From NCBI RefSeq assembly GCF_036346855.1, contig NZ_CP107841.1, positions 3,228,001-3,292,000 of the forward strand: a stretch of 64,000 nucleotides of DNA, given 5' to 3'. Shown in pieces: positions 33,916-50,057 of this stretch (position 1 is its first letter; the number at the start of each line of letters is the position of its first letter). The position numbers were made by a program, and so were the translations under genes. The notes beneath the pieces were generated by a model. The model saw nothing but the letters and a program-made list of their open reading frames with translations. It searched no databases and was not told the DNA's origin. The stretch comes from Streptomyces europaeiscabiei (lineage in GTDB: Bacteria; Actinomycetota; Actinomycetes; Streptomycetales; Streptomycetaceae).

Positions 33916-34950
33916 TCAGGTCTTCTTCCGTGCCGTCATCGCCCGCTGGATCAGGATGAACGCGCACAGCAGCACACCCGTGGCGATCTTCGTCCACCAG
34001 GAGCTGAGGGTGCCCTCGAACTGGATGATGCTCTTGATGAGGCCCAGGACGAGGACGCCGAACAGGGTGCCCAGGACGTAGCCGGAGCCGCCCGTCAGCA
34101 GCGTGCCGCCGATGACGACGGCGGCGATCGCGTCCAGTTCCATGCCGGTGGCGTGGAGCGGGTCGCCGGACTGGATGTAGAGGGTGAAGAGCAGGCCCGC
34201 CAGGGCCGAGCAGAAGCCGGACACCGTGTAGACGGCGATCTTGGTGCCGCCCTGCGGGAGACCCATCAGCATCGCCGACTGCTCGTTGCCGCCGATGGCG
34301 TACACACGGCGGCCGAAGCGGCTGTAGTGGAGGATGTAGAAGGCCGCGGCGAGGACCACGAGGGCGACTATCGCGCCGACGGACAGGAAGCCGATCCCCA
34401 ACTGTGCCTGCGCCTGCGCCAGGCTGCTCACCGTCGAGTCGCCGATGGCGATCGACTCCTTGCTGATGACCAGGCACAGGCCCCGGAAGAGGAAGAGGCC
34501 GGCCAAGGTCACGATGAAGGGCTGGATCTCGAAGTTCTGGATCACATAGCCCATCAGGAAGCCGCCGAAGGCTCCCACGGCCAGGGCCATGGGGATGACC
34601 AGCAGGATCGGCAGGCCCTGGCGTTCCACCAGCCAGGCCGTGAACATCGTGGTGAAGCCGATGACCGAGCCGACGGAGAGGTCGATGCCGCCGGAGAGGA
34701 TCACGAAGGTCGCGCCGACGGCGGCCACCAGCAGGTAGCCGTTGTCGATGAAGAGGTTGAGGAAGACCTGCGGTTCGCCGAACCCGTAGTTCTGGTAGCG
34801 GCTCAGGCCCGTGATGTACATCGCGAGGAAGAGCGCGGCGGTCACCAGGACGGGCAGGCGCCGGTCGGCGAGAAGCGCCGAGACCTTGGACGCGGACGTC
34901 GGTGCCGTACCGCTGTCCTGGGCCGGTGGGGTCTTGGTGGTCGCGGTCAT
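33916..34950 (-). CDS. yjfF: Sugar ABC transporter permease, YjfF type
   Basis: A 344-residue permease of the RbsC/BPD_transp_2 family with 9-10 membrane helices. The hallmark GGIDLSVGSVIG loop (about 104-115) and the EAA-like AIGGNEQSAMLMG segment are present. Gene order (binding protein, ATPase, two permeases) matches YtfQ-YtfR-YtfT-YjfF of E. coli, a galactofuranose importer. Its ATG overlaps the stop of the preceding permease by one base (TGATG), so translation is coupled. It is the last gene of the operon. Confidence 0.92.
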   Translation of the reverse strand: MTATTKTPPAQDSGTAPTSASKVSALLADRRLPVLVTAALFLAMYITGLSRYQNYGFGEPQVFLNLFIDNGYLLVAAVGATFVILSGGIDLSVGSVIGFTTMFTAWLVERQGLPILLVIPMALAVGAFGGFLMGYVIQNFEIQPFIVTLAGLFLFRGLCLVISKESIAIGDSTVSSLAQAQAQLGIGFLSVGAIVALVVLAAAFYILHYSRFGRRVYAIGGNEQSAMLMGLPQGGTKIAVYTVSGFCSALAGLLFTLYIQSGDPLHATGMELDAIAAVVIGGTLLTGGSGYVLGTLFGVLVLGLIKSIIQFEGTLSSWWTKIATGVLLCAFILIQRAMTARKKT

Positions 34951-36086
34951 CACGACACCTCCATCTTCGGGGCAGCCTCGGCGGGCGTCGTGGTGGTCTT
35001 CGCCGGGGCCGCGGGCGACGTGCCGCCGCCGGTCGCGCCGGGCTTGGAGCCGAACCGGGCGCCGAAGACCTTCGCGCGGAACTTCGGGGACTGGAGCAGG
35101 CAGACGACGATGACGACGGCGGCCTTGAAGACCAGGTTGGTCTGGGTGGGCACGCCGATCGTGTAGATCGTCGTCGTGAGGGTCTGGATGACCAGGGCGC
35201 CGACGACCGTGCCGCCGATGGAGAACCGGCCGCCCAGCAGCGAGGTGCCGCCGATCACCACGGCGAGGATCGCGTCCAGCTCGATCCACAGGCCGGCGTT
35301 GTTGCCGTCGGCGGCCGAGGTGTTGGAGCTGATCATCAGGCCCGCGATACCCGCGCACAGGGCGCAGAAGACGTACACCATGATCTTGATGCGGAGGGAC
35401 CGGATGCCGACCAGGCGGCTGGCCTCCGCGTTGCCGCCGACCGACTCGACGAGGAGGCCGAGGGCGGTCTTGCGGGTCAGGGCGACGGTGACGGCGACGA
35501 CGGCCGCGACGACGAAGATGGAGAAGGGCAGCGTCAGCCAGTAGCCGCCGCCGATCAGCTTGTACGGCTCGCTGTTGATGGTGATGATCTGGCCGTCGGT
35601 GATCAGCTGGGCCACACCTCGGCCGGCGACCATGATGATGAGGGTCGCGATGATGGGCTGGATGCCCATCCTGGCCACCAGGAAGCCGTTCCACAGGCCG
35701 CAGACCACCGCCGCCACCAGGCCGATGCCCATGGCCAGGAACACCCCGGCCAGCGCGTTCTGGTCGGCCTGGTCGCTGATGTACGAGCAGGTCAGGGCGC
35801 CGGTGATGGCGACGACCGCGCCGACGGAGAGGTCGATGCCGCCGGTGGCGATGACCAGGGTCATGCCGACCGCCACCAGGATCAGGGGCGAGCCGAACAG
35901 CACGATCGAGACGAGGCTGCCGTAGAGGTGGCCGTCCGTCATCCTGATCGAGAAGAAGTCGGGGGTGAAGGGGACGTTGACGAGCAGCAGGGCTACCAGG
36001 ACCGCGACGGGCCAGAACAGGTGGTGGTGCGTCAGCGCTCGCCAGCGGGACGTCGTGGCTGTCGTGGCCGCGGGTGGGGTGCTCAC
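34950..36086 (-). CDS. Sugar ABC transporter permease, YtfT type
   Basis: A 378-residue permease with 9-10 helices and GGIDLSVGAVVAI, plus a GGNAEASRLVGI cytoplasmic loop. A C-terminal Thr/Ala/Pro-rich tail of about 45 residues is longer than in enterobacterial YtfT. GTG 36086 overlaps the ATPase stop (GTGA). It pairs with the YjfF-like protein to form a heterodimeric channel. Confidence 0.92.
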   Translation of the reverse strand: MSTPPAATTATTSRWRALTHHHLFWPVAVLVALLLVNVPFTPDFFSIRMTDGHLYGSLVSIVLFGSPLILVAVGMTLVIATGGIDLSVGAVVAITGALTCSYISDQADQNALAGVFLAMGIGLVAAVVCGLWNGFLVARMGIQPIIATLIIMVAGRGVAQLITDGQIITINSEPYKLIGGGYWLTLPFSIFVVAAVVAVTVALTRKTALGLLVESVGGNAEASRLVGIRSLRIKIMVYVFCALCAGIAGLMISSNTSAADGNNAGLWIELDAILAVVIGGTSLLGGRFSIGGTVVGALVIQTLTTTIYTIGVPTQTNLVFKAAVVIVVCLLQSPKFRAKVFGARFGSKPGATGGGTSPAAPAKTTTTPAEAAPKMEVS

Positions 36087-37615
36087 TGGTGTTCTCCGCT
36101 CGCGATGGTCTCCAGGATCTTGCTGGTGGTGATCTCCGGCCCGTTGGTGAGCTTCGCGACCAGCTTGCGGTCGCGCAGCACGCCGATGGTGTGGCTGAGG
36201 CGGAGGACCTCCTCCAGCTCGGCCGCGATGTAGAGCACGGACATGCCGTCCTCGGAGAGGGACACCACGAGCTTCTGGATCTCGGCCTTGGCGCCGACGT
36301 CGATGCCCCGGGTGGGCTCGTCGAGGATCAGCAGCTTCGGCTGGGTGATCAGCCAGCGGGCGAGCAGCACCTTCTGCTGGTTGCCGCCGCTGAGCTGGCC
36401 GACACGGGCCTCGGGGTTGGCGGGCCGGATGTCGAGGGCCTTGATGTACTTGGCGACGAGTTCGTCGCGCTGGGCGGCCGGGATGGGCCGGGTCCAGCCG
36501 CGGGACGCCTGGAGGGCCAGGATGATGTTCTCCCGGACCGTCAGATCGGGGACCAGGCCCTCGGTCTTGCGGTTCTCCGAGCAGAACGCGACCCCGGCGC
36601 CGATGGCGTCGTTCGGGGCGTTCATCGGGATCTGCTTGCCGCCCACGGTGACCTTGCCGCTGTCGGGCTGGTCGGCGCCGAAGAGCAGCCGGGCGAGTTC
36701 GGTGCGACCCGAGCCGAGCAGACCGGCGAGGCCCACGACCTCGCCCTTCTTGATGTCCAGGTCGAAGGGGGCGATGCCGCCCGTGCGCCCGAGGCCGTCC
36801 GCGTGCAGCAGGGTCTCGCCGACGTCGGCGTGCAGCTGCTGCTCGTGGAGCTCCTCGAGCTGGTCCAGGTCCTTGCCGATCATCAGCTGGATCAGGCCGA
36901 CCTGGTCGAGTTCGCTGACCATGTGCTCGCCGACGAGGGTGCCGTTGCGCAGGACGGTCATGCGGTCGCAGATCTCGTAGATCTGGTCGAGGAAGTGGGA
37001 GACGAAGAGGATCGCGACACCCTCGTCCTTCAACCGCCGCATCAGACGGAAGAGTTCGAGGACCTCGTCGCGGTCGAGGCTGGACGTCGGCTCGTCGAGG
37101 ACGAGGACCTTGGTGCCCTTCCCCTCCTCACCGCCGGTGCCCACCGACCGTACGATCGCGACCAGTTGCTGCACGGCCAGCGGGTACGAGGACAGCGGTG
37201 CCGTCACGTCGATGTCGAGGCCGAGCCGGTCGACCAGCTCCGCGGCCTCCTTGCGCAGCTGCTTCCACTGGATGCGGCCGAAGCGGGTCGGTTCGCGGCC
37301 GATGAAGATGTTCTCCGCCACCGACAGGTTGGGGCAGAGGTTGACCTCCTGGTAGACCGTGTTGATCCCGGCCTGCTGCGCCTGCAGCGGGCTGGCGAAC
37401 CGCACGGACTCGCCGTCGAGGGTGATCGTGCCGCCGTCCAGGGAGTAGACCCCGGTCAGCACCTTGATCAGGGTGGACTTGCCGGCGCCGTTCTCGCCCA
37501 TCAGAGCGTGTATCTCGCCGGGGAAGAGCCGGAAGTCGACGCCCGACAGAGCCCTTACGCCCGGGAACTCTTTGACTATGCCCGTCATCTCCAGGACGGG
37601 CCGCGGCTCTGCCAT
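36083..37615 (-). CDS. Sugar ABC transporter ATP-binding protein, YtfR type
   Basis: A 510-residue double-domain ATPase. The first half has Walker [10 protein letters not shown], a degenerate signature (SSYPLAVQQLVAI) and Walker B VLVLDEPTSSLD. The second half has an atypical Walker A (GLLGSGRTE), signature [12 protein letters not shown] and Walker [15 protein letters not shown], as in the RbsA/MglA family. ATG 37615 has AGGAGA nine bases upstream, next to a hairpin at 37633-37652. It is separated from the binding-protein gene by a structured 245-base gap. Confidence 0.94.
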   Translation of the reverse strand: MAEPRPVLEMTGIVKEFPGVRALSGVDFRLFPGEIHALMGENGAGKSTLIKVLTGVYSLDGGTITLDGESVRFASPLQAQQAGINTVYQEVNLCPNLSVAENIFIGREPTRFGRIQWKQLRKEAAELVDRLGLDIDVTAPLSSYPLAVQQLVAIVRSVGTGGEEGKGTKVLVLDEPTSSLDRDEVLELFRLMRRLKDEGVAILFVSHFLDQIYEICDRMTVLRNGTLVGEHMVSELDQVGLIQLMIGKDLDQLEELHEQQLHADVGETLLHADGLGRTGGIAPFDLDIKKGEVVGLAGLLGSGRTELARLLFGADQPDSGKVTVGGKQIPMNAPNDAIGAGVAFCSENRKTEGLVPDLTVRENIILALQASRGWTRPIPAAQRDELVAKYIKALDIRPANPEARVGQLSGGNQQKVLLARWLITQPKLLILDEPTRGIDVGAKAEIQKLVVSLSEDGMSVLYIAAELEEVLRLSHTIGVLRDRKLVAKLTNGPEITTSKILETIASGEHQ

Positions 37616-37860
37616 AAGTCTCCTAGCGAGGACCACCGGCTTTGCCCGGTGGGGGAATTCACTTATCTGGGCTGTGTTACGTACATCCCGCCCCAAAAGG
37701 GGTCGGTTCGGGCTGGACCGCAACCTTCGGGTTGGAAGCCCGCACATGGGGCGGAGTCACGGCAGCGCCCTCGTGCAAGGGAATCGCCGCAGGCCCGCAG
37801 GGGCCCGGCCGACCGAGGTCTCGGCCGGCCGGAGGCTCCCTGACCGGTGGGCGTGGTGGG
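37616..37860 (-). other. Structured intercistronic region of the furanose-importer operon
   Basis: In the minus-strand transcript several hairpins follow the binding-protein stop: a near-perfect GGCCGACCGAG/CTCGGCCGGCC stem (about 37807-37830), a UUCG-type hairpin CAACC-TTCG-GGTTG near 37724, CCCC-AAAA-GGGG near 37692, and CCACCGG/CCGGTGG (37633-37652) just upstream of the ATPase ribosome site. No coding frame is seen. It probably lowers downstream expression relative to the binding protein. Confidence 0.65.
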
Positions 37861-38874
37861 TCAGTACTTGCGGGTGGGGAGGGCGTCCTTGGCCTGGTCC
37901 TGCATGAAGTCGCTCTCCTTGGTCTTGATCCAGCGATCGACCGTCTCGCCGTCCTTGACCTTCTGCACGACCTCCATCAGCTGGGGGCCGAGCAGCGGGT
38001 TGCACTCGACGATGGCGTTGATCTTGCCCTCGGACATGGCGATGAAGCCGTCCTTCACGCCGTCGACCGTGACGATCAGGATGTCCTTGCCGGGCTTCTT
38101 GCCGGCCGCCTCGATGGCCTGGATGGCACCGATACCCATGTCGTCGTTGTGCGCGAACAGCACGTCGATGTCCGGGTTGGACTGCAGGAAGGCCGCCATG
38201 ACCTGCTTGCCGCCGGCGCGGGTGAACTCACCGGTCTGGCTGACGACGATCTCCCAGTCGTCCTTGTGCTCCGCGTCCATGACCTCCTTGAAGCCCTTGG
38301 CGCGCTCGATCGCGGGGGCGGCACCGGTGGTGCCCTCCAGCTGTGCGATCTTCACCTTGCCCTTGTGGCCGGCCTTCTCCAGGACCTTCTCCAGGATCTT
38401 GGCGGCGCGGCGGCCCTCGTCCGTGAAGTCGGAGCCGACCAGGGTGACGAACAGGGACTCGTCGGAGGTCTCGACGGAGCGGTCGGTCAGGACGACCGGG
38501 ATCTTCTTGGCCTTGGCCTCCTTCAGCACCGCGTCCCAGCCGGTGACGACCACCGGCGAGAAGGCGATGACGTCCACGCCCTGGGTGATGTAGCTGCGGA
38601 TCGCGGAGATCTGGTTCTCCTGCTTCTGCTGCGCGTCGGAGAACTTGAGGTTGTAACCCGCCTCCTTGGCCGCCGACTTCACCGAGTCGGTGTTGGCGCT
38701 GCGCCAGCCGCTCTCGGAGCCGACCTGGGAGAAGCCGAGGGTGATCTTCTTGCTGCCGCCGTCGCCGCCGGAGCCGGAGGTACCGGTGGAGGTGTCCTCC
38801 TTGGCGCAGGCCGCCAGACCCGTCGCGGCCGCCACGCCGACTGCCGCGGTGAGGAAGTTACGTCTGTTGAGCAT
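37861..38874 (-). CDS. Sugar-binding lipoprotein, YtfQ type, with Tat-like signal
   Basis: The protein has 337 residues. The signal MLNRRNFLTAAVG has a twin-arginine pattern (RRNFL) and ends in the lipobox LAAC, suggesting Tat export and lipid anchoring. The periplasmic-binding-protein family 4 fold follows: GFSQVGSESGWR, ITQGVDVIAFSPVVVTGWD and DVLFAHNDDMGIGAI, all similar to galactofuranose-binding YtfQ. ATG 38874 has AAAGGAGAAG upstream. It is the first gene of the import operon, probably under the adjacent LacI regulator and/or the shared CGAAATTTCG-like site. Confidence 0.92.
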   Translation of the reverse strand: MLNRRNFLTAAVGVAAATGLAACAKEDTSTGTSGSGGDGGSKKITLGFSQVGSESGWRSANTDSVKSAAKEAGYNLKFSDAQQKQENQISAIRSYITQGVDVIAFSPVVVTGWDAVLKEAKAKKIPVVLTDRSVETSDESLFVTLVGSDFTDEGRRAAKILEKVLEKAGHKGKVKIAQLEGTTGAAPAIERAKGFKEVMDAEHKDDWEIVVSQTGEFTRAGGKQVMAAFLQSNPDIDVLFAHNDDMGIGAIQAIEAAGKKPGKDILIVTVDGVKDGFIAMSEGKINAIVECNPLLGPQLMEVVQKVKDGETVDRWIKTKESDFMQDQAKDALPTRKY

Positions 38875-38960
38875 GTCTTCTCCTTTGAAGAGCCGGTCCG
38901 AGGGCGGACCGTTGTTACTCGTGGTGGACCGGCCGCACTGCGTCCAACCTGTCGATCATT

Positions 38961-38974
38961 GTTCGAAATGTCGG
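38961..38974 (-). promoter_or_regulatory. Shared operator-like motif, site A (upstream of sugar-binding protein)
   Basis: GTTCGAAATGTCGG (plus strand), about 87 bp before the ytfQ-like start. It aligns with sites at 41528-41556 and 43851-43866 around a CGAAAT/ATTTCG core. Confidence 0.6.
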
Positions 38975-39016
38975 CCATACTGAGAGAGGAAAAGCGTTCG
39001 GTTATTCGAGGCCGCG

Positions 39017-40063
39017 TCAGCCCGGCGGGGCCCCCGGTGGGGGCAGATACGGGAAGGTGCTGGCGCGGACGACGAGTTGGGGCTCTATGGCGATCCGGGA
39101 CGGCCCGGCAGGGGTCCGGCCCTCGATCAGGTCGAGCAGCAGGGCGATGCTCCGCTGGCCCACCGTGGCGAAGTCCTGCCGGACGGTGGTGAGCGGTGGG
39201 GCGAAGAACTCCGACTCCGGGATGTCGTCGAAGCCGGCCACCGCGACGTCCTGGGGCGTGCGTACGCCCGCCTCCCGCAGCGCGCGCAACACCCCCAGCG
39301 CCATCTGGTCGTTGGCGACGAACACGGCGGTCAGACCGCGGCCCACCCAGCCGGCCAGTTCCTGGCCCGCCCGGTAGCCCGACAGCGGGCTCCAGTCCCC
39401 GCGCAGCGGCTGCGGCGGCTCGATGCCGGCCTCTTCGAGGGTGGCCCGCCAGCCGACGGTCCGGTCCGCCGCCTCCTGCCAGTCCTCGGGACCGGCGAGG
39501 TGCCAGACCCTACGGTGCCCCGCGGCGAGCAGATGGCCGGTGGCCAGCCGCGCGCCCAGTTCCTGGTCCACGTTGACGCTGGGTATCTCCGAACCGGAGC
39601 CCGTGCCAACGGCCACCACCGGGAAGGGGTGGCGCAGTTCGGCGAGGGCCGCGACCGCCGACCGCTGTGGGGCGAGGGCGATCACCCCCTCCACACCGCC
39701 GTCGCTGAGGCGGTCGACCGCCTCGGAGAGCGTCTCCACGGTCAGTTCGCGCAGACTGACCGTCGAGACGAGGTACCCCTCGGCGCGGGCCGCCTCCTCC
39801 AGCGCGAACAGCGTGCTGGCCGGCCCGTAGAGCGTGGTGTTGGAGGCGACCACGCCCAGCGTCTGGGTGCGCCGGGTCACCAGGGCCCGTGCGGAGGAGT
39901 TGCGACGGTAGCCCATCTCCTCGATCGCGCGCTGCACCCTGGCCCGGGTCTCGTTCCTCACGTTGGGGTGGTCCCCCAGGACGCGGGAGACGGTCTGGTG
40001 GGAGACACCGGCCTGGCGGGCCACGTCGGCCATGGTGGGCGGCCGGAGCTGCGAGTGGGTCAC
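39017..40063 (-). CDS. LacI family transcriptional regulator
   Basis: A 348-residue protein from GTG 40063, with GAGGAGG seven bases upstream; the longer frame is rejected. The N-terminal LacI helix-turn-helix (MADVARQAGVSHQTVSRVL; hinge YRRNSSARALVTRRT) is followed by a periplasmic-binding-like ligand domain with VFVANDQMALGVLRAL and VAGFDDIPES. It sits directly upstream of the YtfQ-type operon on the same strand, so a sugar-released repressor of that importer is likely. A LacI-type operator lies in its own promoter. Confidence 0.93.
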   Translation of the reverse strand: MTHSQLRPPTMADVARQAGVSHQTVSRVLGDHPNVRNETRARVQRAIEEMGYRRNSSARALVTRRTQTLGVVASNTTLYGPASTLFALEEAARAEGYLVSTVSLRELTVETLSEAVDRLSDGGVEGVIALAPQRSAVAALAELRHPFPVVAVGTGSGSEIPSVNVDQELGARLATGHLLAAGHRRVWHLAGPEDWQEAADRTVGWRATLEEAGIEPPQPLRGDWSPLSGYRAGQELAGWVGRGLTAVFVANDQMALGVLRALREAGVRTPQDVAVAGFDDIPESEFFAPPLTTVRQDFATVGQRSIALLLDLIEGRTPAGPSRIAIEPQLVVRASTFPYLPPPGAPPG

Positions 40064-40307
40064 GGCCGCACCTCCTCGGCGGTCGACGGTGGACAGGTTC
40101 GTGCTGCGGGTAAGTCCTGTGGTGGCGATGGATCCCTCGCCACGGACGGGCCTTGTGCGGCGGGCGGATGGTTCCGCGCCGTCGGCTTCACGCCGCGATT
40201 CCGGAAAGCCCCAGGTCAGCCACTGGTAAGGCGAGTTGGAGCGCTGTTGGCACGACGCTCGTACCTCCTCGGATGCCCTGGGGCGTCGACTGATGAATGC
40301 GGAGGTC

Positions 40308-40338
40308 ATTGTGAGCGCTAACAATTCATGGCGGTCAA
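40308..40338 (-). promoter_or_regulatory. LacI-type operator and promoter of the regulator gene
   Basis: The dyad TTGTGAGC-GCTAACAA (40309-40324, one mismatch) has the central CG typical of LacI operators. On the minus strand -35 TTGACC (40338-40333) and -10 CACAAT (40313-40308) flank it with a 19-bp gap. This supports autoregulation of the LacI gene. Confidence 0.7.
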
Positions 40339-40469
40339 GAGGGATGCGTCAGGGAAGGCGTCACGGTTGAATAACGCGGCAGTCGGCGCGAGTGAGGAAC
40401 GGCCGTCCGGGACACCACGAAGCCCCCGGGCGCGGACCCCGGCCCGGGGGCTTCGACCTGCGGTTATCG

Positions 40470-41321
40470 CTACGAGCACCACCACAGGAACTGCTTGCAC
40501 GTCTCCGTCGGACTGGGCTCCGGAGTGGGGTCGTCCGCGGTCGGTTCGGTGGCCGGGGTGTCGGAGTCGCCGGGGTCGGAGGTCGGGTCCTGAGCCGAAG
40601 GGGCGGGGCTCGCCGTGGCGTCGGTGGCCGAGCGGTCCCTGGGCTTGTCCGCGTCCTCGGCGTCGTCCTCGCCCTCGGATTTCTCGGACTCCGAGGCCGA
40701 CGGGGACGCCGACTTGTCCGGCTTCTTCCCGTTCTTGTCGACGTCGGCGGGGTCGTTGGAGCCGTCGCCGGCATCCTCGACATCGTCCGCCGCAGCCGTC
40801 GGGGAGGCGTCGGAGACGTCGTCCACGGAGACCGCGCGCGGCTCCGCCGGCGGTGCCTCCATGCCGAGTTCGGCGAGGCTCAGTCCGCCTGCGGCGAGCA
40901 GCAGGCCGGCCCCGATCATCAGCACCCGCCGCCGCCGGCGCCGGTGCGCGGCGGCCTTGCGGTCGCGGCGTCCGACCCGCGCACCGCGGCCACGACCCCG
41001 GGACCGGGCACGGCGCCCGCCGGCCGCCGGGGCGTCGCCGTCGGCCGCGTCCTCGAACGCGTCGTCGCGTTCACCCGCGGGCATGTCGTCCTGCCCGGCC
41101 CGCCCGCCGCGACCACGGCCCTGGGACCGCGCACGGTGTCCACCACTCGGGCGCTCGCGGGTGGCTTCCTCCCCGGACACGTCCTCGCGCTCGTCCACGG
41201 CCGTGTGGTCCCGGACGGACAGCGCGTCCGGATGGGACCGGCACTCTTCGGCCGACGCGCCGCACCCCGAGCAGGAGAGGGCGCCATTGAGGTGCCGTTG
41301 GCACGGGTGGCAGTAATCCAT
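40470..41321 (-). CDS. SCO2400-family zinc-ribbon membrane protein
   Basis: A 283-residue protein. The N-terminal zinc ribbon has two CxxC pairs (C4, C7, C17, C20: DYCHPCQRHL, LSCSGCG). A basic Arg/Gly-rich region leads to one membrane helix (about 133-152). The extracytoplasmic part is Asp/Ser/Pro/Thr-rich and ends in TCKQFLWWCS with two cysteines. The topology puts the zinc ribbon inside. The family is conserved in Streptomyces near the fab locus; its function is unknown. It is divergent from the dehydratase operon. Confidence 0.8.
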   Translation of the reverse strand: MDYCHPCQRHLNGALSCSGCGASAEECRSHPDALSVRDHTAVDEREDVSGEEATRERPSGGHRARSQGRGRGGRAGQDDMPAGERDDAFEDAADGDAPAAGGRRARSRGRGRGARVGRRDRKAAAHRRRRRRVLMIGAGLLLAAGGLSLAELGMEAPPAEPRAVSVDDVSDASPTAAADDVEDAGDGSNDPADVDKNGKKPDKSASPSASESEKSEGEDDAEDADKPRDRSATDATASPAPSAQDPTSDPGDSDTPATEPTADDPTPEPSPTETCKQFLWWCS

Positions 41322-41488
41322 GACGCCGGAAGATTATGTTCCGCAGTGGTGACGTTCCCGGGTGGGCCCGTGAAAGTTGTGTAGGAACCTCGTGGACCGG
41401 GGCGTCGGGGCGGGGACGGTCCGGATCATTTGCCCGCCATCCCGGCCATCGACGACCATCGACCCGAAACCGTTGTGCGTTCGACCCA

Positions 41489-41556
41489 TTGACACTCCGA
41501 CCGGGTCGTCCTTACTGTCGCGACCAGCATTTCGAACGAGTGACGAAATTTCGAAC
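41489..41556 (+). promoter_or_regulatory. Dehydratase operon promoter with two operator-like sites (B and C)
   Basis: Consensus TTGACA (41489-41494) and TACTGT (41513-41518) with an 18-bp gap. Immediately downstream are CATTTCGAAC (site B, 41528-41537) and GACGAAATTTCGAAC (site C, 41542-41556, containing the perfect palindrome CGAAATTTCG). Their position just after the start point fits a repressor roadblock. Confidence 0.75.
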
Positions 41557-41580
41557 AGACCACAAAGGACAGGGAGTACC

Positions 41581-42738
41581 GTGCGCATCACGGGAATCAG
41601 CACGCACGTGGTCGGGACGCCGTGGCGGAACCTGACCTACGTCCTGGTGCACACCGACGAGGGGCTCACCGGCGTCGGCGAGACCCGCATGCTCGGCCAC
41701 ACCGACGCACTGCTCGGCTATCTGCACGAGGCACAGGCCAACCACATTCTCGGCTCCGACCCGTTCGCTGTCGAGGATCTGGTCAAGCGGATGAAGTACG
41801 GCGACTACGGGCGGGCCGGCGAGATCGTGATGTCCGGCATCGCGGTCATCGAGATGGCCTGCTGGGACATCAAGGGCAAGGCCCTCGGCGTCCCCGTCTG
41901 GCAGCTGCTGGGCGGCAAGGTCACCGACAAGGTCAAGGCGTACGCCAACGGCTGGTACACCACCGAGCGCACGCCCGAGGCGTACCACAAGGCGGCGCAG
42001 GGGGTCATGGAGCGCGGTTACAAGGCGCTCAAGATCGACCCCTTCGGCACCGGCCACTTCGAGCTGGACCACGAGCAGAGCATGTACGCGGTCTCCCTGA
42101 TCGAGGCCGTGCGCGACGCCATCGGGCCGGACTCCGAGCTGATGCTGGAGATGCACGGCCGGTTCTCGCCCTCCACCGCCGTCCGCCTCGCCAAGGACCT
42201 GGCGCCCTTCAAGCCCGCGTGGCTGGAGGAGCCGTGCCCGCCGGAGAACCTGAAGGCGCTGGAGAAGGTCGCCGCCAAGGTCGACATCCCGGTGGCCACG
42301 GGTGAGCGGATCCACGACCGGATCGAGTTCCGGGAGCTCTTCGAGAGCCAGGCCGTGGACATCATCCAGCCCGACGTCGGCCACATCGGCGGCATCTGGG
42401 AGACCCGCAAGCTGGCGGCGACCGCAGAGACCCACTACACGCTGGTCGCGCCGCACAACGTGGGCGGGCCGGTGCTGACCGCGGCCTCCCTCCAGGTCGG
42501 CTTCACCTCCCCGAACTTCAAGATCCTGGAGCACTTCAACGACTTCGCGGACGCGGAGATCAAGAAGGTCGTCTCGGGGGCCCCGGAGGTCGTGGACGGC
42601 TACTTCCACCTGTCCGACAAGCCCGGCCTCGGTGTCGAGCTGGACGTGGACGCGGCGGCGGAGTTCCCGCAGCAGCAGGCCCGGTTCGACCTGTGGGCCG
42701 AGGGCTGGGAGCAGCGCAAGCCCAAGGGCAGCCAGTGA
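41581..42738 (+). CDS. Enolase-superfamily sugar-acid dehydratase (mandelate racemase/galactonate dehydratase type)
   Basis: A 385-residue protein from GTG 41581 with an AGGGAG site. The N-terminal capping domain is followed by the barrel: LKIDPFG on strand 2, metal ligands in MLEMHGR, LEEPCPP and TGERIH, and a late APHNVGGP His. The Glu/Glu/Glu ligand pattern and length match D-galactonate/arabinonate dehydratases, which turn an aldonate into a 2-keto-3-deoxy acid. It is the first gene of an operon with an alcohol dehydrogenase (GTGA overlap), fitting oxidative sugar breakdown. Confidence 0.88.
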   Translation: MRITGISTHVVGTPWRNLTYVLVHTDEGLTGVGETRMLGHTDALLGYLHEAQANHILGSDPFAVEDLVKRMKYGDYGRAGEIVMSGIAVIEMACWDIKGKALGVPVWQLLGGKVTDKVKAYANGWYTTERTPEAYHKAAQGVMERGYKALKIDPFGTGHFELDHEQSMYAVSLIEAVRDAIGPDSELMLEMHGRFSPSTAVRLAKDLAPFKPAWLEEPCPPENLKALEKVAAKVDIPVATGERIHDRIEFRELFESQAVDIIQPDVGHIGGIWETRKLAATAETHYTLVAPHNVGGPVLTAASLQVGFTSPNFKILEHFNDFADAEIKKVVSGAPEVVDGYFHLSDKPGLGVELDVDAAAEFPQQQARFDLWAEGWEQRKPKGSQ

Positions 42739-43757
42739 CCGCCACGCCCGACACGGCCACCGCCGTCGTCATCGAGGCGCCGGGCGAGCACCGGCTGGTG
42801 CCGCACGAGCCCCGGCAGCCGGAGGCCGGCGAGGCCCTGGTCCGGGTGCACGCCTCCGGGATCTGCGGCAGCGACCGCGAGGTCTTCCAGGGCAACAGGC
42901 CGGAGGGGTACGTCCGTTACCCCCTCACACCGGGCCACGAGTGGTCCGGAACGGTCACGGCCGTGGGTGACGGTGTCCCTTCAAGTCTTGTAGGCCGCAA
43001 GGTCGTGGGCGAGGGCTTCCGGAACTGCCAGGTGTGCGACCGCTGCCACGCGGGCGAGACCACACTGTGTTCGGCGGGGTACGAGGAGACCGGGTTCACC
43101 CAGCCCGGCGCGATGGCCACGACCCTCACCCTGCCCGCCCGTCTGCTGCACGTCCTCCCGGACGACGCGGATCTGACGGCGGCGGCGCTGCTGGAGCCGG
43201 CCGCGTGCATCGCGGCCGCCGCGCTCAAGGCGAACGCGGTCCCCGGCGAGCGGGTCGCCGTGGTGGGCACGGGAACGCTCGGCATGTTCGCCGTTCAGTT
43301 CCTGAAGGCGGGCTCACCGGCCGAGCTGCTCGTCGTGGGTACCCGTTCGGACCGGGCGGAGCTGTCGAAGCGGTTCGGTGCCACGGACTTCCGCACGAAG
43401 GACCAGGAGCTGCCGGGCGACTTCGACGTCGTCATCGAGACCGCCGGGTCCGCGGACGCGGCGCGCACGGCCGCCGCCCTGCTGCGGCGCGGCGGGCGGC
43501 TGGTCCTGACGGGCATCCCGGCACCGGGCGCGGACGGGCTCGACCCGACGGATCTCGTCGTGCGGCAGCTGGAGGTGCACACCGTGTTCGGCGCGGCGCC
43601 GGACGCCTGGGCGCACACCGTGCGGGTCTTCGGGGCCGGGCTGCTGGACCCGCTGCCGCTCGTCACGCACGAGCTGCCGCTGGAGGAGTTCTCGCAGGCC
43701 ATCGAGCTGGTCGGGTCGGGCGACCCGACGGTCGGAAAGGTCCTGCTGCGGCCATGA
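42735..43757 (+). CDS. Zinc-dependent alcohol/sugar dehydrogenase
   Basis: A 340-residue medium-chain dehydrogenase. Catalytic zinc ligands are Cys in SGICGSD and His-Glu in PGHEWSG; the structural-zinc loop NCQVCDRCHAGETTLC carries four cysteines. The Rossmann motif is VVGTGTLGMFAV. It probably oxidises a sugar or sugar alcohol with NAD(P) in the same pathway as the coupled dehydratase. GTG 42735 overlaps the upstream stop by four bases. A strong terminator follows. Confidence 0.92.
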   Translation: MTATPDTATAVVIEAPGEHRLVPHEPRQPEAGEALVRVHASGICGSDREVFQGNRPEGYVRYPLTPGHEWSGTVTAVGDGVPSSLVGRKVVGEGFRNCQVCDRCHAGETTLCSAGYEETGFTQPGAMATTLTLPARLLHVLPDDADLTAAALLEPAACIAAAALKANAVPGERVAVVGTGTLGMFAVQFLKAGSPAELLVVGTRSDRAELSKRFGATDFRTKDQELPGDFDVVIETAGSADAARTAAALLRRGGRLVLTGIPAPGADGLDPTDLVVRQLEVHTVFGAAPDAWAHTVRVFGAGLLDPLPLVTHELPLEEFSQAIELVGSGDPTVGKVLLRP

Positions 43758-43771
43758 CACACCCCTGAGCC

Positions 43772-43814
43772 GTACGCCGGTACGGGGCTCCCTGACGACT
43801 TCGTACCGGCGTAC
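43772..43814. terminator. Terminator of the dehydratase/dehydrogenase operon
   Basis: Perfect 13-bp stem GTACGCCGGTACG / CGTACCGGCGTAC with a 17-nt loop, 15 bases after the dehydrogenase stop. Confidence 0.85.
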
Positions 43815-43850
43815 ACCCAAGAGCTCTGTGCACCAAGAGCCGCGAACCTT

Positions 43851-43866
43851 GTCCGAAATATCGAAC
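43851..43866 (+). promoter_or_regulatory. Shared operator-like motif, site D
   Basis: GTCCGAAATATCGAAC, 17 bp before the TIM-barrel gene start. A near-palindrome (GTyCGA half-sites) aligned with sites A, B and C. Confidence 0.65.
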
Positions 43867-43882: not shown

Positions 43883-44851
43883 GTGACCGACACCACCGCT
43901 CCGGCGCCGCGCCGACCCGGCGAGCAGGCGCTTGCCGCGCTCGGCCTGGGCGCGCCCGCCCTCGACCCTTCCGACGCCTCCCCGCACTCCTTCCCAGGCG
44001 GCGGCAGCTGGCGCACCGAGGTCCCCTCCGTCGAGGGGCCCGAGGCGCTCGCCGTGGTCCTCAAGGAGGCCTCGCGGCTCGATGTGCCGATCCACCGGAT
44101 CAGCCAGGGCAGCGGCGTGTGGATGCTCACCGACGCCGAGATCACCGAGATGGTGGAGGCGACGGCCGAGCGTGACATCGAGCTCTGCCTGTTCACCGGC
44201 CCGCGCGGCACCTGGGACATCGGCGCCTCCACCCGTACCGACTCCAAGGGCGCCGGCCTCAGGGCCCGCGGTCACGACGCGGTCGCCGGATGTGTCGAGG
44301 ACGCCGTGCGCGCGACCGAGCTGGGTGTGAAGTGCCTGCTCGTCGCCGACGAGGGTGTGCTGTGGACGCTGCACCGGGCACGCGTCGCGGGCATCATCCC
44401 GGCCGACACGACCTTCAAGGTGTCGGCGCTGATCGGGCCGGTCAACCCGACCGCGTACGCCGTGTACGAGAACCTCGGCGGCGACTCGATCAACGTGCCG
44501 AGCGATCTGACGCTCGACCACCTCACGGAGATCCGGCGGGTGTCCGGCGCTCCCATGGACATGTACATCGAAGCCCCCGACGACCTCGGCGGCTATGTGC
44601 GGATGTACGAGGTCGCCGAACTGATCCGGCGCGGCGCACCGATCTATCTGAAGTTCGGCCTGTCGAAGTCCCCCGGGATCTACCCCTACGGGCACCACAT
44701 GCGGGACCTCACCCTGTCCACGGCCAAGGAACGCGTACGGCGCGGCAGGCTGGCCCTGGACCTCCTCGCACGGCACGGGGCGGACGGCGACATGGCGCCG
44801 CTCGGCTCGCGGCTGCCGGGCGCGCTGAAGCGATTCGGAACTCCCGCATAA
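43883..44851 (+). CDS. TIM-barrel protein of unknown reaction (distantly peptidase U32-like)
   Basis: A 322-residue protein from GTG 43883 with GAAGGAC upstream. Strands and helices alternate as in a (beta/alpha)8 barrel: VPIHRISQGSGVWML, IELCLFTGPRGTWD, GVKCLLVADEGVLW, DSINVPSDLTLDH, PMDMYIEAPDDLGG, APIYLKFGLSKSPG. The acidic and His residues at strand ends suggest metal or Schiff-base chemistry, but no known catalytic set is recognised. Placed between sugar-oxidation enzymes and a sugar importer and preceded by site D, it is a candidate lyase, isomerase or hydrolase in this pathway. Confidence 0.6.
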   Translation: MTDTTAPAPRRPGEQALAALGLGAPALDPSDASPHSFPGGGSWRTEVPSVEGPEALAVVLKEASRLDVPIHRISQGSGVWMLTDAEITEMVEATAERDIELCLFTGPRGTWDIGASTRTDSKGAGLRARGHDAVAGCVEDAVRATELGVKCLLVADEGVLWTLHRARVAGIIPADTTFKVSALIGPVNPTAYAVYENLGGDSINVPSDLTLDHLTEIRRVSGAPMDMYIEAPDDLGGYVRMYEVAELIRRGAPIYLKFGLSKSPGIYPYGHHMRDLTLSTAKERVRRGRLALDLLARHGADGDMAPLGSRLPGALKRFGTPA

Positions 44852-44965
44852 CGTTCCGGAAACCTCCCTTCACAGAACCCGACGCGGTCGCACAGACTCC
44901 GACACAAATTCTTACCCAATCGGGTCCCGGCCTCACCACCATCAAGACCATCAAGGAAGATGATC

Positions 44966-46078
44966 ATGCGTACTCGCCGAGCCGCTCTCGCCTCCATAGC
45001 CACCGCCGCCTCCCTGGCCCTGACCCTCTCGGCCTGCGGTCAGAGCTCCGAGGGCGGCAGCGAGGAGAAGTCCTCGGGTGACACCAAGGGCGCCACCATC
45101 GGCATCGCGATGCCGACCAAGTCCTCCGAGCGCTGGATCTCCGACGGCGACAACGTCGTCAAGGACCTGGAGGCCAAGGGCTACAAGACCCAGCTGGTCT
45201 ACGGCGAGGACAAGCCCGAGCAGCAGGTCTCCCAGATCGAGAACCTGATCGCCCAGGGCGTCAAGGCGCTGATCGTCGCCGCGATCGACAACAAGTCGCT
45301 CGACAACGTGCTGCAGCAGGCCAAGGACGCGAACATCCCGGTCATCTCCTACGACCGCCTGATCCTCAACAGCCCGAACGTCGACTACTACGCCTCCTTC
45401 GACAACAGCAAGGTCGGCGAGCTCCAGGCCAACTACATCGTCGAGAAGCTCGGTCTGACGGCGGGCAAGAAGGGCCCCTTCAACATCGAGCTGTTCGCCG
45501 GCTCCAACGACGACAACAACACCAAGTACTTCTTCAACGGCGCGATGAGCGTGCTCCAGCCGTACATCGACAAGAAGCAGCTCGTCGTCCAGTCCGGCCA
45601 GACCAAGATCACGCAGGTCACCACCCTGCGCTGGGACGGCGCCACCGCCCAGCGCCGCATGGACGACATCCTCACCAAGTCGTACAAGAGCGAGAAGGTC
45701 GACGCGGTCCTCTCCCCGTACGACGGCATCTCCATCGGCATCCTGTCGGCGCTGAAGTCGGACAGCTACGGCTCCAAGAGCAAGCCGCTGCCTGTCCTCA
45801 CCGGCCAGGACGCCGAGCTTGCCTCGGTGAAGTCGATCATCGCGGGCGAGCAGACGCAGACGGTCTACAAGGACCTGCGTGAGCTGGCCAAGGTCGCCTC
45901 GAACATGGTCGACGCGGTGCTGAACGACAAGAAGGTCGAGACGAACGACACGAAGACCTACGACAACGGGTCCAAGGTCGTCCCGGCGTACCTCCTGGAG
46001 CCGGTCAGCGTCGACAAGACCAACTACTCGGAGATCCTCGTCGACGGCGGTTACTACACGGCGGACCAGCTCAAGTAA
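44966..46078 (+). CDS. chvE: Multiple-monosaccharide-binding lipoprotein, ChvE type
   Basis: A 370-residue protein from ATG 44966, with AAGGAAG seven bases upstream (ATG 44960 is too close). Lipobox LSAC. The family 4 binding-protein fold: [13 protein letters not shown], the ribose/xylose-binding-like [16 protein letters not shown], and [17 protein letters not shown], all typical of ChvE/XylF proteins that bind galactose, arabinose, xylose and glucose. It is the first gene of a chvE-mmsA-mmsB importer. Confidence 0.93.
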
Positions 46079-46110
46079 GCGTCGGATCTCAAGGATTGGA
46101 AGGCAAGACC

Positions 46111-47657
<1,547 letters not shown>

Positions 47658-47661
<4 letters not shown>

Positions 47662-48902
47662 GCACGGATGTGACCGCCAAGAGCCCGGCCCCCGCGCCGC
47701 CCGGCAAGAGCGGGGGCGCGGTGGGCGGAGGTCTGCTCCAGCTGTTGCTGGACGGCATGCGCCGCAACATGCGGCAGTACGGCATGCTGATCGCCCTCGG
47801 CGTGATCGTGGCGCTGTTCGCGGTGTGGACCGACGGTGACCTGCTGCTGCCGCGCAACGTCTCCAACCTGGTGCTGCAGAACAGCTACATCCTGATCCTC
47901 GCGATCGGCATGATGCTGGTCATCATCGCCGGCCACATCGATCTCTCGGTCGGCTCACTGACCGCGTTCGTCGGTGCCTTCGCGGCCGTACTGACCGTGC
48001 AGCACGACATCTCCTGGCCCGTCGCCGTGGTCCTCTGCCTGATGGTGGGCGCCCTGGCCGGTGCGATCCAGGGCTACTTCATCGCGTATCTCGGGATACC
48101 GTCGTTCATCGTCACCCTCTCCGGCATGCTCACCTTCCGCGGTGTCACGGAGATCCTGCTGCAGGGCCAGACCCTCGGTCCCTTCCCCGAGGGCCTGCAG
48201 AAGATCGGCAACGGCTTCCTGCCGGCGACCGGCCCGCAGACCAACTACCACAACCTCACCCTGCTCCTCGGCCTCGTCCTGATCACCTTCGTGGTGCTCC
48301 AGGAGGTCCGGGACCGCAGGCGTCAGCGGGAGTTCTCGCTGGACGTGGCGCCGCTCAACATCTTCATGCTCAAGCTCGTCTCGATCGTCGCCGCGCTGCT
48401 CACCGTCACCCTGCTGCTCGCCAGCTACAAGGGTGCGCCGATCATCCTGATCATCCTCGGTCTGCTGGTGGTCGGTTACGGCTACGTCATGCGGAACACG
48501 GTCTTCGGCCGTCACATCTACGCGATCGGCGGCAACCTGCCGGCCGCGAAGCTGTCCGGCGTGAAGGACAAGAAGGTCACCTTCTACGTCTTCTTGAACA
48601 TGGGCGCCCTGGCGGCCCTGGCAGGTCTGGCGATCGCCGCCCGCCTCAACGCGGCCGGCCCGAAGGCGGGTCTCAACTACGAACTGGAGGCCATCGCCTC
48701 GGCGTTCATCGGCGGCGCGTCCATGAGCGGCGGTGTCGGCACCGTCCTCGGCGCGATCATCGGCGGTGTCGTCCTCGGTGTCCTCAACAACGGCATGAAC
48801 CTCCTCAACGTCGGCTCCGACTGGCAGCAGGTCATCAAGGGCCTGGCCCTGCTGGCGGCCGTCGGGTTCGACGTGTGGAACAAGCGCAAGTCCGGTTCGT
48901 AG
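47658..48902 (+). CDS. mmsB: Multiple-monosaccharide ABC transporter permease
   Basis: A 414-residue permease (GguB/MmsB) with about ten helices, [13 protein letters not shown] and the cytoplasmic [14 protein letters not shown] segment. It is larger than RbsC, which is characteristic of the MmsB group. It forms the channel with MmsA. Confidence 0.95.
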
Positions 48903-49013: not shown

Positions 49014-50057
49014 GTGAAGGAGCTCTTCGGCAAGCTGGCCGACGGCACCGAGATCCACCGCTGGTCGCTGGAGAACGGCGGCACCCGTCTGAAGGTCCTG
49101 TCGTACGGCGGGATCGTGCAGTGCCTGGAGACCCCGGACCGGGACGGCCGGTACGCGAACGTCTCCCTGGGCTTCGACACCGTCGAGGACTACGTCGCCG
49201 GGTCGCCCTACTTCGGCGCGCTGATCGGCCGGTACGGCAACCGGATCGGCGCGGGCCGCTTCACGCTGGACGGCGAGACGTACGAACTCTCCGTCAACGA
49301 CGGCACGAACAGCCTGCACGGCGGGGCGGACGGCTTCGACAGGGCCGTGTGGGACGTCGAGCCGTTCACGGACGGCTCGGACGTGGGTCTGCGGCTGTCG
49401 TACACCAGCGCCGACGGGGAGATGGGCTACCCCGGCGCGCTGGCCGTGGAGGTCACCTACACCCTCACCGAGCGGGGCGAGTGGCGCATCGACTACGGGG
49501 CGACAACCGACCGGACCACCGTCGTCAACCTCACCAACCACGTGTACTGGAACCTCGCGGGAGAAGGCAGCGGCTCGGTCCTGGACCACGAGCTGACGAT
49601 CGCCGCCGCCCGCTACACCCCGGTCGGCTCCGGCCTGATCCCCACCGGCGAGCCGGCCGACGTCGCGGGCACACCCTTCGACTTCCGAACGGGCAAGGCG
49701 GTGGGCAAGGACGTCCGCGCGGCCGATCCGCAGCTGCTCCAGGCCAAGGGGTTCGACCACAACTGGGTTCTGGACAAGAGCGGTACGGCCGGACCGGAAT
49801 GGGCCGCCACGCTCACCGACCCGGCGTCCGGCCGCACACTGAAGATCTCCACGACCGAGCCTGGACTGCAGTTCTATTCCGGGAACTTCCTGGACGGCAC
49901 GCTCGTCGGACCGTCCGGGAAGACCTACCGGCAAGGGGACGCGCTGTGCCTGGAGACCCAGCACTTCCCGGACTCGCCGAACAAGCCGTCGTACCCGTCG
50001 ACGGTGCTGCGACCTGGGGAGACGTACCGATCGACGACGGTCCACGCCTTCGGATGA
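49014..50057 (+). CDS. galM: Aldose 1-epimerase (mutarotase)
   Basis: A 347-residue galactose-mutarotase-fold protein. Conserved regions: GRYGNRIGAGRFTLDG, SLHGGADGFDRAVWD (catalytic-base region), VVNLTNHVYWNLAGEG (catalytic His) and GLQFYSGNFLDG with the terminal Glu region. It interconverts alpha and beta anomers of imported aldoses. It is placed just after the monosaccharide importer, consistent with sugar utilisation. Confidence 0.95.
   Translation: MKELFGKLADGTEIHRWSLENGGTRLKVLSYGGIVQCLETPDRDGRYANVSLGFDTVEDYVAGSPYFGALIGRYGNRIGAGRFTLDGETYELSVNDGTNSLHGGADGFDRAVWDVEPFTDGSDVGLRLSYTSADGEMGYPGALAVEVTYTLTERGEWRIDYGATTDRTTVVNLTNHVYWNLAGEGSGSVLDHELTIAAARYTPVGSGLIPTGEPADVAGTPFDFRTGKAVGKDVRAADPQLLQAKGFDHNWVLDKSGTAGPEWAATLTDPASGRTLKISTTEPGLQFYSGNFLDGTLVGPSGKTYRQGDALCLETQHFPDSPNKPSYPSTVLRPGETYRSTTVHAFG

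Follow-up and report, generated by a model that had tools for sequence, protein, structure and literature searches.

A putative paired operator points to an IclR-family regulator of a predicted L-arabinose and arabinan regulon in Streptomyces

Introduction

IclR-family repressors, such as KdgR, IclR and AllR of E. coli, act at short near-palindromic operators at promoters. The regulator that we propose here has the same HTH_IclR and IclR_C domains. It differs from the E. coli proteins in that its predicted operator is a pair of elements with 19-bp spacing, its predicted regulon contains arabinofuranosidase-type genes, and it scores below the equivalog cut-offs for those proteins.

Regulons for arabinose have been described in other bacteria. 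As in the AraR/AraR2 regulons of Halomonas, arabinose transport and an oxidative pathway with a lactonase and a dehydrogenase seem to be regulated together (PMC5507952). There, the regulators belong to the LysR and GntR families, whereas our candidate is of the IclR family and its regulon also includes polysaccharide-degrading enzymes. The bifidobacterial regulons for arabinose and arabino-oligosaccharides (PMC5928203) resemble this one in being arabinose regulons from comparative genomics. We found no description of this IclR regulator or its motif in the open-licence PMC literature. An IclR regulon is a known kind of system; the novelty seems to lie in which regulator acts, in the pairing of its operator, and in there being an arabinose regulon of this kind in Streptomyces.

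We studied a stretch of 64,000 nucleotides from Streptomyces europaeiscabiei (NZ_CP107841.1, positions 3,228,001 to 3,292,000), which we call the window. The original prediction was that one near-palindromic motif with a CGAAAT/ATTTCG core marks three sugar transcription units in the window, and that a GntR- or IclR-like protein encoded elsewhere may control them. We propose that an IclR-family repressor controls a regulon for L-arabinose and arabinan through paired operators just downstream of promoters. We give this reading a probability of roughly 0.86.

Results

The motif is a pair of elements

All four strings of the original prediction are present where it placed them. The full 16-mer, GTTCGAAATTTCGAAC, is well above chance: with up to 3 mismatches, it has 3 matches in the window (38961, 41541 and 43851), as compared to 0.07 expected, and none of 100 shuffles attained 3 matches. 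The loose CGAAAT/ATTTCG core, CGAAATNTCG, is another matter. With up to 1 mismatch it has 9 matches in the window, versus 8.5 expected, and because of this chance-level frequency, we dropped it as a search word.

The three predicted units do have the sites upstream. What had been overlooked is that the true unit is a pair of elements at 19-bp spacing: GACCAGCATTTCGAAC with TGACGAAATTTCGAAC, ACCAAGAGCCGCGAAC with GTCCGAAATATCGAAC, and, on the minus strand, GGCCGACATTTCGAAC with GATCGACAGGTTGGAC. When up to 3 mismatches are allowed, the pattern TCGAACN6CGAAATNTCGAAC, which describes the pair, is found 3 times in the window, versus 0.02 expected. The putative operator of the dehydratase operon (41522..41556, plus strand) comprises elements at 41522-41537 and 41541-41556, 19 bp apart, and has 0 mismatches to the pair pattern. 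The other two have a weak partner. Upstream of the gene for a CUT2 sugar-binding protein (SBP), the putative operator (38942..38976, minus strand) has a strong element at 38961-38976 and a weak partner at 38942-38957. Upstream of the operon for a TIM-barrel protein and a transporter, it lies at 43832..43866 on the plus strand (main element at 43851-43866, weak partner at 43832-43847).

Paired places adjoin arabinofuranosidase-type genes

Scanning the genome for single sites with up to 2 mismatches gave 287 and 72 places. The paired pattern was far cleaner: with up to 3 mismatches, it gave 13 places in the 10.95-Mb genome, as compared to 0 for the reversed pattern that served as a control. The genome-wide scan that had been suggested as a check thus did not refute the motif.

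Most of these places (11 of 13) have a fitting neighbor: a window unit, a gene of arabinofuranosidase type, a gene for a sugar-binding protein, or the IclR gene. In the window they are upstream of the dehydratase, TIM and SBP genes, and another is in the promoter of the IclR gene itself. The remaining ones are beside other genes. At L112 the gene encodes an AbfB-domain protein whose match to an arabinofuranosidase model falls short of the cut-off. At L113 it encodes a GH43 enzyme, and L113 also has two overlapping places between genes for an AbfB-domain protein and a rhamnosidase-type protein. The genes at L114, L115 and L116 are for a GH127 enzyme, a ChvE-like binding protein and a GH43-like AbfB protein, respectively. 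We judged the other 2 of the 13 places (L111 and L117) to be unrelated. Not counted here are single sites at an arabinofuranosidase-domain gene (L119, where the site is within the longest reading frame) and at GH43 genes (L120 and L121).

At L115, a stretch (L115:4058-4216; G000:C1 about 5600057-5600215) aligns over 164 bases, at 74% identity, with the operator and the gene start of the dehydratase in the window. Among the neighboring genes in the fetched stretch, we found no dehydratase gene after it. It looks like a relic of a duplicated dehydratase unit, upstream of the gene for the ChvE-like binding protein.

A second genome, G007, has 18 paired places. Four of these we took as core. They are at the dehydratase, at the IclR gene and, as judged by position only, at the TIM and SBP units. 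Of the 14 non-core places, 12 adjoin genes for GH43, GH62, GH127, AbfB, GH27-type or sugar-binding proteins. We did not count the other two: 4358658 is in an intergenic region that also holds a counted place, and at 6786442 there is no gene that fits. (At several G007 sites, the mechanically longest reading frame runs over the site, and we infer that the real start must be further in. At L205, with its GH43 gene, and at L206, with its AbfB gene, the site is overlapped by further reading frames as well.) One reading frame in this genome (L207:1786-3525) encodes a protein with sigma-70 region 2 and a C-terminal AbfB domain, and it is divergent from the gene for an AbfB-domain protein across an operator pair.

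The putative operator is conserved at orthologous promoters

We then turned to other loci that encode a relative of the dehydratase, in a scan with one genome per species. The best 80 of 562 such loci are all from Streptomyces (with one record labelled 'Actinobacteria'). As had been proposed as a check, we asked if the motif is kept at orthologous promoters, and upstream of the dehydratase it is kept in these best 80 of 562 loci. With the window added to the best 80 of 562 loci, 81 of 81 rows show an element within 150 bp upstream of the dehydratase, the threshold being 11 of 16 matches, and ATTTCGAAC lies exactly 19 bp further upstream. In alignments from the same best 80 of 562 loci, the TIM gene has the main element in 80 of 80 rows, with the exact CGAAC partner 19 bp upstream in only 66 of 80. 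For the SBP gene, both elements are present in 41 of 41 rows (for the partner, we required at least 14 of 16 matches to its own consensus).

For comparison, among these best 80 of 562 loci, the region upstream of the second binding-protein gene reaches 11 matches in 2 of 80 rows, and the region upstream of the LacI gene does so in 7 of 41. Six of those 7 resemble the dehydratase promoter read from the other side; L071 is separate. In the upstream alignments, the 16-bp block with the highest conservation is the operator in the case of the dehydratase (96%) and of the TIM gene (93%). In the SBP alignment, the ribosome-binding stretch (99%) is more conserved than the operator, which counts against a simple reading there.

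The putative operator follows the promoter

A TTGACA-TACTGT promoter was predicted directly before the dehydratase sites, and it is there (41489..41518, plus strand): the -35 box is at 41489-41494, the -10 box is at 41513-41518, 18 bp separate them, and the pair pattern starts 13 bp past the -10 box. (A generic promoter scan left this promoter out, since TACTGT agrees with TATAAT in no more than 3 of 6 positions.) Scanning for a -35 box of TTGACA, TTGACG or TTGCCC and a -10 box of TANNNT, 17-18 bp apart, gave a promoter upstream of 8 of the 13 paired places in the genome. The pair pattern begins 12-13 bp after the -10 box in 7 of these 8 promoters, and 21 bp after it at L115. No promoter of the scanned form was found at the other 5 of the 13 places (TIM, SBP, L111, L117 and one of two L113 places). 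An operator pair that starts just past the transcription start suits a repressor, and the suggestion of repression from directly downstream of the promoter fits the geometry at the scanned promoters.

The candidate regulator is of the IclR family

A search of the genome for IclR_C gave 29 matches. One of these genes (G000:C1:3296330-3297100, minus strand; L110:6328-7101) begins to the right of the window, 5.1 kb past its end. The protein has an N-terminal HTH_IclR domain (PF09339; 55.0 bits, cut-off 22) and a C-terminal IclR_C domain (PF01614; 160.8 bits, cut-off 24). It scores below the NCBIfam equivalog cut-offs of the named subgroups: 171.7 of 350 for BhcR, 166.9 of 275 for KdgR, 137 of 380 for IclR, and 113.5 of 406 for AllR. 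An operator pair lies in the gene's own promoter, about 50 bp before its ATG, and the gene is overlapped by 4 bp by an SMP-30/gluconolactonase-type gene, whose product would fit as the lactonase. (Short tandem repeats rich in GC are also visible by eye upstream of this IclR gene, at L110:7390-7520. Another reading frame, L118:1741-3429, has a tandem arrangement, with two stretches each of IclR HTH and IclR_C.)

In S. europaeiscabiei, the IclR gene and the dehydratase are 26 kb apart. In Streptomyces sp. NRRL B-3428 (L017), the dehydratase and a 79% identical IclR orthologue are divergent, and the lactonase-type gene comes after the orthologue. No IclR orthologue was found in the other 79 of the best 80 loci, within flanks of up to 10 kb. 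We also considered 14 genomes that were chosen because these two genes are close together. In 13 of them the genes are direct neighbors that diverge from a shared gap of 161 to 426 bp, and all 13 have motif-like elements (at least 11 of 16 matches) at both ends of this gap. In the fourteenth (G070) the genes are about 3 kb apart, and the scan covered the dehydratase side.

Finally, we profiled this one of the 29 IclR_C genes across 121 Streptomyces genomes from a single draw. The IclR gene is present in 82 of the 121 genomes and the dehydratase in 79, all within the 82. (G047, G058 and G116 have the IclR gene without the dehydratase.) The 82 genomes with the IclR gene have 621 paired places, versus 6 for the reversed control; the median is 7, with a range of 1 to 30, so some have only one. 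The 39 genomes without it have 36 (median 1), versus 8, which means that the pair pattern has some background above the reversed control. The 121 genomes share ancestry, so the co-occurrence does not amount to 121 independent events, and p-values calculated from these counts make it look stronger than it is.

We also let the gap between the two half elements vary from 0 to 30 in 61 genomes. Of the 119 matches listed, 112 are in genomes with the IclR gene, and 75 of these are at exactly the 19-bp period. None of the 7 listed matches in genomes without it has that period. The next commonest gap, 30 (8 listed matches), resembles one conserved sequence that is probably coding.

Overall, the IclR half of the original prediction is favored by the self-operator, the co-occurrence and the divergence. 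From a search that covered IclR_C, the regulator that reads the motif is most likely of the IclR family rather than GntR. The paired motif, its conservation and spacing, the adjoining genes, and the tie to the IclR gene are all computed; that the protein binds this DNA we infer, along with repression, the oligomer, the effector and the enzyme reactions.

The genes suggest an oxidative L-arabinose pathway

The minus-strand unit encodes a CUT2 importer that would be part of the regulon: a YtfQ-like furanose-binding protein (37861..38874, below the curated YtfQ cut-off), a YtfR-like ABC ATPase (36083..37747, start provisional, below its curated cut-off), and a YjfF-like permease (33916..35694, start provisional, above its cut-off). 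On the plus strand are an enolase-superfamily sugar-acid dehydratase (41581..42738) and a zinc-binding dehydrogenase (42735..43757), which we propose to be L-arabinonate dehydratase and L-arabinose 1-dehydrogenase. The dehydratase is galactonate-dehydratase-like, and scores 292.8 of 311 bits with the galactonate dehydratase model (NCBIfam PRK14017), below the curated cut-off. Next come the TIM-barrel protein (43883..44851), a proposed late enzyme of the pathway, and a second importer: a CUT2-type sugar-binding protein (44960..46078), an ABC ATPase (46096..47661) and a permease (47544..48902, start provisional). An aldose 1-epimerase (mutarotase; 49014..50057) is last in the run, also on the plus strand.

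The TIM-barrel protein has no match in Pfam or NCBIfam, and searching PDB sequences with it gave nothing. A fold search with its model gave only generic barrels, with TM to the query of at most 0.47 among the matches listed, so we do not claim a reaction for it.

Genes of dehydrogenase, lactonase and dehydratase type thus lie under one motif, with their activities predicted from family. It is plausible that the window units and the lactonase-type gene beside the IclR gene make up an oxidative L-arabinose pathway. No L-arabinose isomerase (PF02610) was found in the S. europaeiscabiei genome. Among the 121 genomes the isomerase is present in 17, namely 8 of the 82 with the IclR gene and 9 of the 39 without it. 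The original prediction named both arabinose and galactose; the sugar is most likely L-arabinose, not galactose.

In Streptomyces sp. SirexAA-E, proteins that were specifically abundant on xylose (1.53 to 2.74 fold) include SACTE_1895 (galactonate dehydratase), 1896 (dehydrogenase), 1899 and 1900 (transporter), and 1901 (arabinofuranosidase) (PMC12772271). The order of SACTE_1895-1901, as given there, resembles the window's; the likeness noted here is one of gene order. That paper has an IclR-like candidate of its own, SACTE_5479, which it calls a homologue of the allantoin repressor. The IclR protein of this regulon is therefore probably a different one.

Discussion

In the mechanism that we propose, the IclR protein, probably as a dimer of dimers, would bind the two elements, which are 19 bp (about two helical turns) apart and follow the -10 box. 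There it would block transcription until L-arabinose or a derivative accumulates and releases it. The regulon would comprise arabinofuranosidase-type enzymes, CUT2 importers, and an oxidative pathway with the dehydrogenase, the lactonase encoded with the IclR gene, the sugar-acid dehydratase and the TIM-barrel enzyme.

Another protein might read the motif. The window encodes a LacI-family regulator (39017..40063, minus strand) whose gene adjoins the importer, and its relatives (53-71% identical) lie within 10 kb of the arabinose isomerase gene, araA, in 13 of the 17 genomes having one (G003, G004, G012, G015, G046, G054, G076, G078, G083, G113, G115, G116 and G119). This suggests an AraR-like role for the relatives, and the window protein may well sense arabinose. 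But close orthologues (at least 83% identity) are present in only 14 of the 121 genomes, all of them with the IclR gene, while paired places are frequent across the 82 such genomes. Since the motif occurs without a close LacI orthologue, the window LacI cannot be its general reader. It also has a conserved operator of its own, TTGTGAGCGCTAACAATT (40309..40326), which is distinct from the motif; as originally noted, the CGAAAT/ATTTCG core lacks the central CG that this inverted repeat has. That LacI reads the motif is very unlikely, and it is probably a second, arabinose-type controller of the importer, working through 40309-40326. We give hardly more credence to a reading by a GntR-type protein or a different IclR paralogue, with our IclR gene as a mere target. 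The 29 IclR_C matches leave room for a paralogue, but the divergent adjacency, the self-operator, the co-occurrence in 79 of 79 genomes, and the small number of paired places in genomes without the IclR gene all argue against it.

The regulon could also be for D-galactose or galactonate instead of L-arabinose. The dehydratase is closest to the galactonate dehydratase model, the importer matches galactofuranose models (with the YjfF-like permease above the cut-off), and a GH27-type gene is among the G007 targets. But the dehydratase, the binding protein and the ATPase all fall under the curated cut-offs, and the targets mostly belong to arabinofuranosidase-type families. We consider a galactose regulon unlikely. 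As for the CGAAAT-like words being a chance run, conserved only because the promoters are related, the loose core is indeed at chance level in the window. A chance run is very hard to square with 13 places versus 0 in the genome, 621 versus 6 across the genomes with the IclR gene, the exact 19-bp period, and the excess of the 16-mer and the pair in the window, so we give it almost no weight.

Going further, we lean slightly toward a broader picture. About two thirds of Streptomyces species would have the IclR protein as the master switch for their use of arabinan, with an obligatory operator pair two helical turns apart; the oxidative L-arabinose pathway would replace the isomerase pathway; and one of its steps would be carried out by the TIM-barrel enzyme, which would belong to no described family.

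These proposals supply a regulator, an operator and a sugar for plant-polymer genes that are widely shared in Streptomyces, and they make its arabinose route directly testable. The 25-bp paired pattern also offers a means to find more arabinan-degrading enzymes. The TIM-barrel protein, which has no Pfam family at all, is placed in a likely pathway. Among the candidates scored, this protein (43883-44851) has 1091 relatives, a few of which are named peptidase U32.
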